A DNA stretch of 64,000 bases, from the NCBI GenBank assembly GCA_017306415.1, contig JAFKIL010000001.1, positions 1,039,971 to 1,103,970 on the forward strand, given 5' to 3'. How positions within the stretch are numbered: position 1 is the stretch's first letter; every line of letters starts with the position of its first letter. The position numbers were made by a program, and so were the translations under genes. Source of the stretch: Microbacterium sp. Lineage in GTDB: Bacteria; Actinomycetota; Actinomycetes; Actinomycetales; Microbacteriaceae. The notes under the pieces are model-generated. The model worked only from the letters and a program-made list of their open reading frames with translations, was not told the DNA's origin and did not search any database. Positions 12,929 to 31,414 of this stretch are shown one piece after another.

Positions 12929-13405
12929 TCAGTCGACCTTGGCGACCGTGCCCGAGGTGAGGCGCACGAGCTCGTCGTACGACAACGGGAAGACCGTGTG
13001 CGGCGTGCCCCCGGCCGCCCACAGCTCGGGGTAGACGGCGAGTGCCTCGTCGACGATCGTGGTCAGCGGCGCGGGATGGCCGGTCGGCGCCACGCCGCCG
13101 ATCGCCTGCCCCGTGGCATCCCGGACCTGCTCCGGCGTCGCGCGGCGGATGGACGTGCGACCCAGTCGTTCGGCCAGCGCCGCCGTGTCGACGCGGTGAG
13201 CCCCGCTCGTCATGACGAGCAGCGGCTCGTCGTCGCTCCAGAACACGAGGCTGTTCGCGATCGCCCCCACCTCGACGCCGAGCGCCGCCGCCGCGAGCGC
13301 GGCCGTGGATGCCGCATCCGGGAGCACGACGATCTCGCCGCCGATCCCCGCCGCACGCAGAGCGTCGTGGACGAGGCGGCTGCGGGCGGGGAGGTTCTCG
13401 CTCAT
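12929..13405 (-). CDS. YbaK/EbsC-family aminoacyl-tRNA deacylase
   Basis: A 158-residue protein of the YbaK/prolyl-tRNA editing domain family. These are free-standing editing enzymes that hydrolyse mischarged tRNAs such as Cys-tRNA(Pro) in the cytoplasm. Family features are a hydrophobic N-terminal region with VVLPDAASTAALAAAALGVEVGAIANSLVF, the strand LVMTSGAHRVDTAALAERLG, and the substrate-pocket motif QAIGGVAPTGHPAP with the conserved GG.xP.G pattern, followed by VDEALAVYPELWAAGGTPHTVF. It is a single-gene unit: the upstream side carries the palindromic repeat unit at 13442-13517 and the downstream side the debranching-enzyme remnant. Confidence 0.88.
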   Translation of the reverse strand: MSENLPARSRLVHDALRAAGIGGEIVVLPDAASTAALAAAALGVEVGAIANSLVFWSDDEPLLVMTSGAHRVDTAALAERLGRTSIRRATPEQVRDATGQAIGGVAPTGHPAPLTTIVDEALAVYPELWAAGGTPHTVFPLSYDELVRLTSGTVAKVD

Positions 13406-13441
13406 GTTCCCAGCCTACGGGCGGGCGTCTCGCCGCTGACA

Positions 13442-13517
13442 GTCGGAAAAGCAGGCTGAACGGTCGCAACAGCTGCCCGCGACACCGCTCTCAGCCGATC
13501 GAGCCTGCTTCCCCGAC
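13442..13517. repeat. Palindromic repeat unit A (left end of DUF559 cassette)
   Basis: The left arm at 13442-13457 (GTCGGAAAAGCAGGCT) pairs with the right arm at 13502-13517 with 14 of 16 positions matching, around a spacer of 44 bases. The first 18 bases of this unit, GTCGGAAAAGCAGGCTGA, are the exact reverse complement of the last 18 bases of unit B at 14510-14527. The unit sits directly after the 3' end of the DUF559-type gene and before the YbaK start. Confidence 0.75.
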
Positions 13518-13525
13518 GATCCGCG

Positions 13526-14344
13526 TCAGCGAGTCGACCGGAGACCGAAGACCGCAGCCCGCACGAGTTCGGGCCGCCACATGATGTCCTCCGCGATGGG
13601 ACGGTATGTGGCGTAGCCGAGCGACGCCGCGGCTTGATCCCGCCGACGATCACGGCGCTGCTCATCCCAACTCGAATGGTGCTCCCTGCTGTCGCATTCG
13701 ATGATGAGCCATCCCTCGACCAGGAAGTCGACTCGTCCCACTCCCTCGATCGGCACCTGCACCTCGAACGAGCAGCCCAGCGAACGAAGTATCAATCGCA
13801 TCAACGACTCCGGACCCGACTCGGCGCGCGAGTCCAGAAGACCTCGGAGCCGGCGGTACCGGCGTGGAAGTGCAGCGAAGAGTTCGTCGAGGTCATCGCG
13901 ATGAATGGCGTTGAGGTGCAGCGCTGAATCGATCGTCGCGACCGAGGCACGCGGATCCTGGCACAGCACCGCGTGGACCAGCGCATCGAGCACCTCGACC
14001 GAGAGCGCCTCGGGATGCGGACGACGCCGCAGCACATCGCGATGTACACGATGTCGGACGTGGATGTCAGGAAGACGGGCGGCGGTCCGTTCGATGTGAA
14101 CATGGAGAGTCTGCACATCTCGTACGAAGACCCCCAGGCGCCGGAGTTCTGACACACACGTGAGGCGGCCACGCAGTCGACCCGCCTCGATGCACGACTG
14201 GTCGGTTCCCGCCGGACAGAACGCACCGGCGCGAAGACGGACGAGGCGCCCCTCGCCGACCGCCGCGCGGACCTGTCGCTCGGTCAGTCCCCGCGTGCGG
14301 AGGTGTCGGGTTCTTATCAATGAGGGAATCGGCGCGGAGTTCAC
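13526..14344 (-). CDS. AbiEi-like / DUF559-domain protein (putative nuclease fold)
   Basis: A 272-residue protein with two parts. The N-terminal region (LIRTRHLRTRGLTERQVRAAV, then GRLVRLRAGAFCP) resembles the winged helix of AbiEi-type proteins, the antitoxin half of type IV toxin-antitoxin systems. The C-terminal region has the DUF559/Vsr-like pattern: RVDFLVEGWLIIECDSREHH, then DRRRDQAAASLGYATYRP, which matches a PD-(D/E)xK-type core with Asp, Glu and downstream basic residues. No AbiEii toxin gene is next to it. I chose the GTG at 14344 because it lies within a perfect palindrome and gives a start just before the winged helix; a TTG nine codons inward is possible. The gene is enclosed by two palindromic repeat units. 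Confidence 0.75.
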   Translation of the reverse strand: MNSAPIPSLIRTRHLRTRGLTERQVRAAVGEGRLVRLRAGAFCPAGTDQSCIEAGRLRGRLTCVSELRRLGVFVRDVQTLHVHIERTAARLPDIHVRHRVHRDVLRRRPHPEALSVEVLDALVHAVLCQDPRASVATIDSALHLNAIHRDDLDELFAALPRRYRRLRGLLDSRAESGPESLMRLILRSLGCSFEVQVPIEGVGRVDFLVEGWLIIECDSREHHSSWDEQRRDRRRDQAAASLGYATYRPIAEDIMWRPELVRAAVFGLRSTR

Positions 14345-14359
14345 GATTGAATCGTGAAC
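14339..14359. promoter_or_regulatory. Perfect palindrome at the DUF559-type gene start
   Basis: GTTCACGAT and ATCGTGAAC form perfect 9-bp arms around TGA. The GTG start codon of the DUF559-type gene lies inside the left arm (read on the minus strand). A winged-helix protein that binds its own start region would fit, as AbiEi antitoxins repress their own promoters, but this is inferred. Confidence 0.5.
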
Positions 14360-14451
14360 GCGCGTGCCGCGACCCCCGCCCGCCCTCTGAACATCCGTGG
14401 ATCGCCGCGCCCATGGCGTCCCTGCGGAGGAGACGGTCGTTCGCGGCACCG

Positions 14452-14527
14452 GTCGGAAGAGCAGGCTGAAACGCATCCGAACGCCGTTCGAGCGCCCATC
14501 ACTTCCGCCTCAGCCTGCTTTTCCGAC
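14452..14527. repeat. Palindromic repeat unit B (right end of DUF559 cassette)
   Basis: The left arm at 14452-14469 (GTCGGAAGAGCAGGCTGA) and the right arm at 14510-14527 pair over 17 of 18 positions, the exception being a possible G-U pair, around a 40-base spacer. The unit is the same length (76 bp) as unit A and shares its arms but not its spacer. It lies in the 324-base interval between the DUF559-type gene and the dehydrogenase. Confidence 0.75.
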
Positions 14528-14668
14528 AAGAGCGACCCCGCACGTACCGCGAACAGGCCGGCGGCCGGGTGGCCGCAGCCGGGCGGCGGGGGCACAATGG
14601 ACGGTGGACGCAGCAAAGCCGCGGCGTCCACCGAGCACAGCCCACAAGGCCAGCCGAAAGAGGTCGCG
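14528..14668 (+). promoter_or_regulatory. Leader region of the Leu/Val dehydrogenase gene
   Basis: Together with repeat unit B this fills the 324-base gap before the dehydrogenase. I see no convincing ORF here. The only readable signal is the purine-rich GAAAGAG eight bases before the ATG, a plausible ribosome binding site. A -10-like CACAAT lies at 14593-14598 but without a good -35 hexamer. Confidence 0.3.
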
Positions 14669-15736
14669 ATGACGCACACCCTGCCCCTGCCCGAATTCAC
14701 CCACGAACGCGTGGAGGTGATCACGGGCTCGCGCAGCGGCCTGTTCCTCACCGTCGCGCTGCACTCCTCGGTGCTCGGCCCCGCTCTCGGCGGCGCTCGC
14801 CTGTGGACCTACGCGCACTGGAGCGACGCCCTGGGAGACGCACTGCGTCTGTCGGCGGCGATGACGCTCAAGAACGCCACGGCGGGCCTGGACGCCGGCG
14901 GTGGCAAGGCGGTCATCCGCCTGGCCCCGGACACGGTGCTGGATGCCGAGTGGCGCCGCGCGGCATTCCTCGATCTCGGTGACGCGGTCGAGTCCCTCGG
15001 GGGCCTCTACCGCACCGCCGAGGACGTCGGCTCCACCACGGAGGACATGCTCGTCGTGAGCGAGCGCACCGCCCACGTCGTCGGGCTCCCCGACGCGGTC
15101 GGCGGCTCCGGCGAGCCGGCGGGTCCGACGAGTCTCGGCGTGTACGAGTCGCTCCGCGCGACGCTCGAGCGCGTCACCGGCTCCCCCGATGTCGCCGGGC
15201 GCCGCATCACGATCTCCGGCATGGGCCAGGTCGGCAGCCGCCTCGCGGTGCGCCTCGCGGCCGAGGGCGCGGTGCTCACCGTGACGGACGTGAACCCCGC
15301 CAAGCGCGACGTCGCCGTCCAGCTCGAGGCGTCGTGGGTCGACCCCGGCACAGAGCATCTCGTCGAGGCGGATGTCTTCGTGCCCGCCGGGATCGGCGGC
15401 ATCCTCGACGACGAGGTCATCGCCGCCCTCGACGCGAAGGCGGTGTGCGGACCGGCCAACAACCCGCTCGCCGAGCGGGCAGGGGCGGAGCGGCTCGCGG
15501 AGCGCGGCATCCTGTACGCCCCCGACTTCGTCGTCAACGCCGGCGGCGTGATCTACCTCGACCTCGAGGCGAAGCGCATCGGCACCCGGGCCGAGATCAT
15601 GGACCGCGTCGCACACATCGGCGACACGCTCCGCCGGATCTACGATGAGGCCGAGCGGCGCTCCGTCACACCGCTCGAGGCGGCCGAGAGCCTCGCCGCC
15701 GAGCGGCTGCGCAGCGGCTCCGGCATCCTCGCGTGA
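14669..15736 (+). CDS. Leucine/valine dehydrogenase (Glu/Leu/Phe/Val dehydrogenase family)
   Basis: A 355-residue amino acid dehydrogenase. The catalytic lysine region appears as LKNATAGLDAGGGKAVI near residues 71-87, preceded by the substrate-binding ARLWTYAHWSDALGDALRLS segment. The Rossmann domain begins at ISGMGQVGSRLAVRLAAEGA around residue 190 with TDVNPAKR as the acidic end of strand two, indicating NAD+ use. Enzymes of this size deaminate branched-chain amino acids to 2-oxoacids and feed the branched-chain degradation or fatty acid primer pools; Leu versus Val cannot be told apart by eye. The ATG with upstream GAAAGAG was chosen; the same frame runs further upstream through the repeat unit without coding character. 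Confidence 0.88.
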   Translation: MTHTLPLPEFTHERVEVITGSRSGLFLTVALHSSVLGPALGGARLWTYAHWSDALGDALRLSAAMTLKNATAGLDAGGGKAVIRLAPDTVLDAEWRRAAFLDLGDAVESLGGLYRTAEDVGSTTEDMLVVSERTAHVVGLPDAVGGSGEPAGPTSLGVYESLRATLERVTGSPDVAGRRITISGMGQVGSRLAVRLAAEGAVLTVTDVNPAKRDVAVQLEASWVDPGTEHLVEADVFVPAGIGGILDDEVIAALDAKAVCGPANNPLAERAGAERLAERGILYAPDFVVNAGGVIYLDLEAKRIGTRAEIMDRVAHIGDTLRRIYDEAERRSVTPLEAAESLAAERLRSGSGILA

Positions 15737-19960: not shown

Positions 19961-20037
19961 GCGGGCGTCTCCTCGCGTCGCGGCGACCTCTGGCCGGCGT
20001 TGCCCGTCACCGCGATTCGGTGTCGCAAAGGCAGGCG

Positions 20038-20083
20038 TGTTGACGTCAACATGGTCTCCGCCGGTCCGTGTTAGCGTCAACAC
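20038..20083. promoter_or_regulatory. Two LacI-like operator sites upstream of the oxidoreductase
   Basis: TGTTGACGTCAACA at 20038-20051 is a perfect 14-bp palindrome, and a related site, TGTTAGCGTCAACA, lies at 20069-20082, 31 bp away or about three helical turns. The centre CG and the TGTT/AACA ends are typical of LacI/GalR-family operators. No LacI-type gene is present in the window, so the regulator must be encoded elsewhere. The surrounding 210-bp interval contains no gene that I can support. Confidence 0.6.
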
Positions 20084-20170
20084 TCCTGCATCTGCGACCG
20101 ATTCTCGACGCCATCGACGGCCGCACCGTCCCCGTGCGGCTGTGACGATGGGGGCGGAACAGGAGCAGAA

Positions 20171-31328: not shown

Positions 31329-31414
31329 GTGCAGAACTCCACGGATCCGGCACCGCGCCGGCACGGGGCACGCCGAATACGTCGCCGTCGCATCGGATCC
31401 GTGGAGTTCTGCAC
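31329..31414. repeat. 86-bp inverted repeat with perfect 21-bp arms
   Basis: The left arm, whose first 20 bases are GTGCAGAACTCCACGGATCC, is at 31329-31349, and its exact reverse complement is at 31394-31414, with a 44-base loop between. It lies between mscL and the convergent small gene. A role as terminator is possible, but the T-run is missing and the arms are much longer and cleaner than needed. It is a different family from the 13.4/14.5-kb units but has the same design of arm length and loop size. Confidence 0.75.

Follow-up and report, generated by a model that had tools for sequence, protein, structure and literature searches.

Dispersed palindromic elements that accompany genes for AbiEi/Vsr-like proteins in Microbacterium

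Within a 64,000-nucleotide stretch of Microbacterium sp. DNA (contig JAFKIL010000001.1, positions 1,039,971 to 1,103,970; hereafter the window) lies a gene for an AbiEi/Vsr-like protein that is enclosed by palindromic elements, and we describe here these elements, their dispersed relatives and their relation to the protein family. The ends of the locus are formed by 18-bp inverted repeats that are 100% identical, GTCGGAAAAGCAGGCTGA at 13442–13459 and its exact reverse complement at 14510–14527, and that enclose a segment of 1,086 bp, just as the first-pass annotation of this DNA had described. That annotation also took each end to be a 76-bp palindrome. Inward second copies do form a 76-bp unit at each end, but the palindromes are imperfect, with more arm mismatches in the left unit than in the right one. 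The GTCGGAAAAGCAGGCTGA motif, allowing up to three mismatches, has three matches in the window, compared to a mean of 0.06 in shuffled sequences (0 of 100 reached three). The sole gene between the ends, on the minus strand, is that of the AbiEi/Vsr-like protein, in line with the earlier description of a single gene and no transposase. It starts with a GTG (Table 1) or with an upstream ATG at 14476, and homologs align mostly from residue ~30–60 of the longer frame onward only. As the earlier description had it, and as can be read directly from the sequence, the GTG is included in a perfect 19-bp palindrome, TTCACGATT-G-AATCGTGAA, which is a possible operator. A search of 13300–14700 for known RNA families returned five microRNA-family matches, all far under their gathering scores, which we took as chance.

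The 76-bp palindrome is not confined to this locus but is dispersed through the genome. The 3.76-Mb host genome (G000; other G numbers denote genomes compared, L numbers loci) contains 11 copies of the paired motif and none of a reversed-pattern control. The motif pattern itself fixed the unit length; all 16 half-site matches in this genome fall inside the 11 76-bp units. Conservation among the aligned copies starts and stops sharply at the two ends of the unit, with two ~22-bp arms separated by a spacer of free sequence, and the units mostly end in GTCG, GTTC, GCGC or GTGC. Most copies stand alone, with no accompanying gene. The window pattern is found in six of 198 genomes drawn from the genus; G138 alone has 25 of the 44 elements, and one genome gave a single control match. 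Three of the 20 units in the G138 unit alignment are spurious, and the arm-matching test described below took a stricter set of 18 units that includes tandem copies. The single match in G094 was rejected as chance, since a long reading frame covers it and the G094 homolog is without such arms; each of the remaining five genomes has a homolog with GCAGG-type arms adjoining. Elsewhere in the window, a 77-bp palindrome at 20022–20098 has related outer arms, GTCGCAAAGGCAGG, and differing inner arms, GTGTTGACG, and may represent another family or a copy that has diverged.

Table 1 Coordinates of the features in the window (G000, host genome).
Feature	Coordinates	Strand	Description
76-bp element	13442..13517	no strand	downstream of gene, 8 bp past stop; inverted half-sites 13442-13463 and 13496-13517
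76-bp element	14452..14527	no strand	upstream of gene; inverted half-sites 14452-14473 and 14506-14527
AbiEi-like plus Vsr-like nuclease gene	13526..14344	-	272 aa from GTG
AbiEi-like winged-helix plus middle domain	13832..14320	-	model residues 9-171
Vsr / EDxHD homing-type nuclease domain	13529..13825	-	model residues ~174-272
Perfect 19-bp palindrome	14340..14358	no strand	spans GTG start
Dispersed 86-bp near-perfect palindrome, AACTCCACGGAT family, arms GTGCAGAACTCCACGGATCCG	31329..31414		arms shared with those beside homolog G000:C4:356015

The window protein matched the Pfam families DUF559 (E=1.1e-4, above the cut-off), MTES_1575 (E=7.5e-8, below its own cut-off) and AbiEi_4 (E=0.047 only). 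MTES_1575 is the closest Pfam nuclease family and was matched by 70 of 70 members of alignment A2, which consists of 69 of 76 intact frames and the window protein and in which the putative catalytic residues of the nuclease motif are invariant. The structure model is AbiEi-like followed by a Vsr/I-Bth0305I-like domain, with an AbiEi fold match of middling strength. We assign the N-terminal part to AbiEi because of this predicted fold and because 41 of the 70 homologs match AbiEi_4 at E≤0.01. The combination of an AbiEi-like winged helix with a DUF559/Vsr-like nuclease, originally suggested from the letters of the locus, is supported by Pfam, by the homologs and by the predicted fold. Membership of a known defence family was considered and rejected, as the PADLOC families yielded nothing beyond weak AbiEi and nuclease matches.

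Homologs (E≤1e-40) are present in 117 of the 198 genomes of the genus, and their flanks contain palindromes of ~70–100 bp with many different arm sequences. Around 80 loci (the best 80 of 220 relatives, some from genomes already in the genus comparison), palindromes scoring ≥13 numbered 58 within 250 bp of the gene (1.50/kb) and 16 in the next 250 bp (0.42/kb), compared to ~0.03/kb at distances over 500 bp and 14 in 400 kb of control stretches (0.035/kb), which corresponds to a ~40-fold enrichment over control within 250 bp. A palindrome was found within 500 bp in 47 of the 80 loci, and on both sides in 17. In a larger set of 102 non-redundant genes (from 127), which excludes eight frames that were short or disrupted (L003, L037, L052, L066, L186, L197, L210 and L259), 63 had a palindrome within 450 bp. 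Thus, the repeats are not scattered indifferently to DUF559-type genes but show a strong preference for them. Relatives that have the gene without the repeats do exist as far as the particular repeats of the window are concerned; other palindromes are often there instead. The host genome contains five homologs (all 81 candidates were scored), with repeats on both sides of all five and five different arm sequences, one set of which is weakly palindromic and was seen with a lax caller.

The arms covary with the protein. When a gene has palindromes on both sides, their arms agree in 27 of 33 cases, whereas comparison between different genes gives agreement in 129 of 1815. Across the 63 genes, proteins that are more alike tend to have more similar arms (Mantel r 0.327; reached by 0 of 1000 permutations), and by region the correlation is 0.324 for residues 52–114, 0.325 for residues 116–213 and 0.179 for the nuclease (residues 215–312). 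The partial correlation of the winged helix given the nuclease is 0.285 (0/1000), while that of the nuclease given the winged helix is 0.08 (53/1000). Because the arms track the winged helix more than the nuclease, these data point to the AbiEi-like part as the putative reader of the arms. Co-localisation, covariation and geometry are most simply read as recognition by the protein of its own flanking arms, which we consider very probable.

Other arm families are likewise dispersed. The TCAGGAGA...TCTCCTGA family comprises 55 elements in 13 of the 198 genomes, 24 of them in G085, and the AACTCCACGG...CCGTGGAGTT family 48 elements in 12 genomes, 11 of them in G000, both with no control matches. 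At least five of the 13 and at least five of the 12 genomes, respectively, have exact-pattern copies no more than 500 bp from a homolog; the remaining copies of both families lie elsewhere. The CCGTACCGTTCTCAGGA arm, found beside the second host homolog, has 67 half-sites in the host genome (control 0), of which 64 form 32 inward pairs, three pairs flanking the gene. A reciprocal test started from the DNA: the CAACAGGTCAACC family was first noticed as a repeat, two copies of which lie 1.2 kb apart in G049 (L172), and the frame between these copies proved to encode a distant homolog (35% identity, E 5e-34). This 72-bp palindrome, CAACAGGTCAACC..., is multi-copy in G049 and G101 (L170–L174), with many matches per genome. 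Four TCAGGAGA-family elements in G000 (C10:82550, C10:95928, C11:436141 and C11:523605), whose arms match none at its five homologs, are possible orphans.

The distances between half-sites fall into discrete steps. In the CCGTACCGTTCTCAGGA family, sought over 40–140 bp, the spacing is 73–74 bp in seven pairs, 84–86 bp in 24 and 95 bp in one. Spans in the AACTCCACGG family (allowed range 66–86 bp, the pattern being blind to spans >86 bp) are 73–74 bp in 41 of 47 elements and 85–86 bp in six of 47, and in the TCAGGAGA family (allowed range 52–64 bp) all 49 of the 49 listed elements span 57–59 bp; these counts took 47 of 48 and 49 of 55 elements, respectively. Because the steps are of about one helical turn, they argue for reading of half-sites on the duplex and would place two protomers on the same face of the helix. 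The two 23-bp inverted repeats bound by AbiEi are separated by 3 bp, and the pairs bound by Rv2827c by 13 bp (PMC7319586). Since AbiEi and Rv2827c use 23-bp inverted repeats, inverted half-sites of ~22 bp would, by analogy, be expected for an AbiEi-like reader.

The first-pass annotation had proposed that the protein acts on hairpins formed by the ends. Compensatory covariation between arms, which we looked for, showed no excess in two of three genomes: the within-element arm match was 189 in G000 and 322 in G138, compared to 192.1 and 330.7 with re-dealt partners, and in G085 it was slightly higher (277 compared to 268.9; reached by 287 of 2000 shuffles). Spacer folding energies were no better than those of shuffles (mean z 0.00, -0.11 and 0.97). 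In-register spacer pairs, out of 16, numbered 6.72 compared to 4.83 for shuffles in G138, 5.55 compared to 4.85 in G000 and 4.67 compared to 5.15 in G085. The lack of arm covariation in two of the three genomes, the shuffle-like spacer energies and the helical-turn spacing do not support the proposal and make a role for hairpins less likely, although the in-register pairs in G138, and slightly in G000, exceed those of shuffles.

Dispersed elements prefer gene ends. We examined 62 elements that were chosen as non-flanking, some of them mutually orthologous, with genes called by a simple codon-composition rule; 52 of the 62 are intergenic, compared to 10.8% of random placements, while a cruder first pass had placed 11 of 41 loci inside frames. 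The 52 intergenic elements comprise 23 in convergent, 20 in codirectional and nine in divergent intervals, for which random intergenic positions give 12%, 64% and 24%, respectively. This gene-end preference is REP-like, where REP denotes repetitive extragenic palindromes, and unlike that of promoter operators; the placement pattern reported for REPs is extragenic (PMC3733652).

Several observations bear on turnover. In four orthologous element pairs, identity is 161/176 in the arms, a figure inflated by the search pattern, which fixed part of the arms, and 98/128 in the spacers; without the pattern-fixed positions it is 92/104 compared to 99/129 (Fisher p 0.025). Spacer sequence is shared in tandem arrays and in a few dispersed pairs (L006/L012, 19/28; L041/L124, 20/28; L119/L128, 19/28), which suggests copying of elements. 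At three element sites in related species, presence and absence at orthologous places are clear and exact ends are not, and element number per pattern varies between species from 0 to 25. The same intergenic regions hold different families in different genomes in three sets (L018/L020/L123, L021/L131/L119 and L023/L116/L109), and these regions are possibly insertion-prone; an in-place swap of arms was considered and rejected, as alignment revealed no shared exact position of different-family elements. A GC-rich GTCGTTGAGCGAGCGAGGAACGAGCGAGACGAAACG-like repeat lies at orthologous intergenic places (L142, L150 and L149) where another genome has a palindrome.

By contrast with a cassette that hops, as the first-pass annotation had contemplated, the genes lie at conserved chromosomal places and most element copies are solitary, and in this the gene is like a resident RAYT (REP-associated tyrosine transposase). 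One site holds gene and palindromes in ten genomes, with differing arms and 1.1–2.2 kb between the same flanks. There, G049 has 1393 bp between the flanks (gene plus palindromes), and G101 and G193 have 180 bp and 115 bp; presence and absence are clear and exact insertion ends are not. At least 13 genomes contain two homologs in opposite orientation ~18–22 kb apart. The frames between the paired homologs look alike in the host (L284–L285, G000:C4:356001–380500) and in G138 (L286, C1:3110001–3128500), and from inspection by eye we take them to be housekeeping-like, including an SdhA-like flavoprotein and a TrpS-like tRNA synthetase. The neighbours of the window gene encode a tRNA-editing-domain protein and an ELFV-type dehydrogenase.

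Outside the genus, a draw of 198 genomes from the phylum, in which scoring covered the top 12 candidates of each genome and breadth is therefore a lower bound, gave matches at E≤1e-15 in at least four further genomes (five loci). With the lax caller, similar palindromes were seen on both sides of L264, L265 and L268, on one side of L263 and on neither side of L266; the flank palindromes of L004 were also seen with this caller. One scan of viral contigs produced 54 pattern stretches, none confirmed as a relative, phage records held no match to the protein, and plasmid records held three, at 30–46% identity. On these grounds a phage or viral origin was rejected.

What is seen by computation is dispersal of the elements, their co-localisation with the gene, arm–protein covariation, phased spacing, intergenic and gene-end placement, and a predicted fold. 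The explanation that we favour, and judge probable, is a two-part chromosomal system of an AbiEi/Vsr-like protein and cognate dispersed elements akin to REPINs (REP doublets forming hairpins), the latter copied or kept through the nuclease. A resident single gene would supply a protein with a DNA-binding AbiEi-like module and a C-terminal Vsr/I-Bth0305I-like nuclease; its cognate elements would present two ~22-bp half-sites in inverted orientation, set a constant number of helical turns apart around a free spacer, to two protomers bound on one face of duplex DNA. The nuclease may then cut or nick at the elements, and repair or recombination may copy or keep them, such that cutting would drive copy number. 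The elements would accordingly be non-autonomous repeats that need the gene, as REPINs need RAYT. For the nuclease itself, spreading or maintaining the elements is the most likely role that we can suggest. To the broader claim, that this is a repeat–enzyme system unrelated to RAYT, with an AbiEi-type reader and a homing-type nuclease acting on phased duplex half-sites, with cutting that spreads or maintains the elements, with coevolved independent pairs in each genome and with a range including Microbacterium and other families of the order, we give even weight for and against. Some points tell against this reading or limit its support: the Mantel test cannot fully separate shared ancestry from function, two of the 13 TCAGGAGA-family genomes (G101 and G193) are without a homolog at E≤1e-40, and in-register spacer pairing in G138 is somewhat above that of shuffles.

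The same data can be arranged in other ways. AbiEi and Rv2827c control their own expression via 23-bp inverted repeats (PMC7319586), and phased duplex half-sites would suit a regulator, so that the protein might repress its own and dispersed promoters via paired half-sites, the nuclease being secondary. The dispersed copies prefer convergent and not divergent gene ends, however, elements also occur downstream of the gene and in tandem arrays, their sites differ between close species and the putative catalytic residues are invariant; we consider a regulon unlikely. Gene-end placement and phased spacing would also fit sites that benefit the host in chromosome folding, transcription termination or the formation of mRNA ends, with the protein as a nucleoid-type or genome-maintenance factor, and this would accord with arms that change somewhat slower than spacers and with a gene kept at conserved places. 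Yet element number and sites vary strongly between species, the gene is missing at the orthologous place in two species and at one gene locus the arms are not the same from species to species, making such a function quite unlikely.

Mobility of a more ordinary kind fares less well. The G049 site, with gene and palindromes where G101 and G193 have short intervals, is what a one-gene mobile element moving by its ends could leave, but nine other genomes hold the gene at that site with diverged arms, which suggests old residence and loss. The paralog pairs of fixed layout and the distant plasmid matches, with no viral or phage relative in the searches above, argue in the same direction, and we regard movement of the 1.1-kb cassette as very unlikely. 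The slimmest chance goes to miniature inverted-repeat transposable element (MITE)-like units, moved by an ordinary transposase, between two copies of which the nuclease gene was caught: terminal inverted repeats and dispersed short units are typical of this picture, whereas here palindromes of many arm families enclose one and the same class of gene, the arms go with the protein and no half-site match in the host genome falls outside a 76-bp unit.

Among the dispersed palindromes of bacteria, REPs and REPINs are known best. The dedicated partners reported for them are HUH transposases (PMC3733652, PMC3116915), and the pairs described here would be a parallel REP-like arrangement with another enzyme class and, apparently, another mode of DNA recognition. 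They offer many natural protein–site pairs, five in one genome, for tests of coevolution between DNA reader and site, and suggest a likely role for proteins so far labelled only 'AbiEi' and 'DUF559'. The system may account for many intergenic palindromes in actinobacteria. In the openly licensed literature of PubMed Central, searched by title and start of abstract, we found no report of this protein–palindrome pairing.

Each part of the system has counterparts elsewhere. The AbiEi fold, predicted with middling strength, is shared with the type IV AbiE antitoxins AbiEi and Rv2827c; here no gene for an AbiEii nucleotidyltransferase toxin adjoins, a nuclease domain is fused, the sites are dispersed through the genome, and the half-site centres are ~53 bp apart, compared to 26 or 36 bp computed for AbiEi and Rv2827c (PMC7319586). 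The predicted fold and invariant residues of the catalytic domain resemble those of Vsr and the EDxHD homing endonuclease I-Bth0305I, but the gene was not seen in an intron or intein and has palindromic elements flanking and scattered. The nearest Pfam nuclease family, the MTES_1575 restriction endonuclease (REase) domain, is described as a Vsr-type domain in a large HEPN fusion protein, a description that does not mention repeats (PMC3710099). CGTC-tagged REPs are likewise palindromic extragenic repeats, said to be without a dedicated transposase, with 8–9 bp stems and 4–5 nt loops and mostly from alpha-Proteobacteria (PMC3733652), whereas the elements here have ~22-bp arms in units of ~76–112 bp. 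Unlike in an insertion sequence, the gene between the inverted repeats is no transposase.

The closest parallel is REPIN–RAYT. REPINs are described as extragenic inverted doublets of fixed length whose conserved ends enclose a free spacer, also found in tandem clusters, with one cognate repeat family beside each RAYT gene and several pairs per genome (PMC3116915), all of which recurs here. The enzyme differs, being AbiEi plus Vsr-like and not an HUH Y1 transposase. Indeed, RAYT itself was rejected as the enzyme: the window protein has another predicted fold, and the RAYT-type Y1 transposase family PF01797, the one transposase family searched genome-wide, was found in none of seven genomes including the host (one genome being 68% complete), compared to five of 14 control genomes. 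The units are also without the GTAG foot described for REPs (PMC3733652), and the helical-turn spacing, together with the absence of arm covariation in two of three genomes, suggests recognition of the duplex. The RAYT-like logic with an unrelated enzyme that the first reading of the locus proposed is supported by the homologs' own palindromes, by the arm–protein covariation and by the dispersed repeats, and the system works like REPIN–RAYT without being a member of it.
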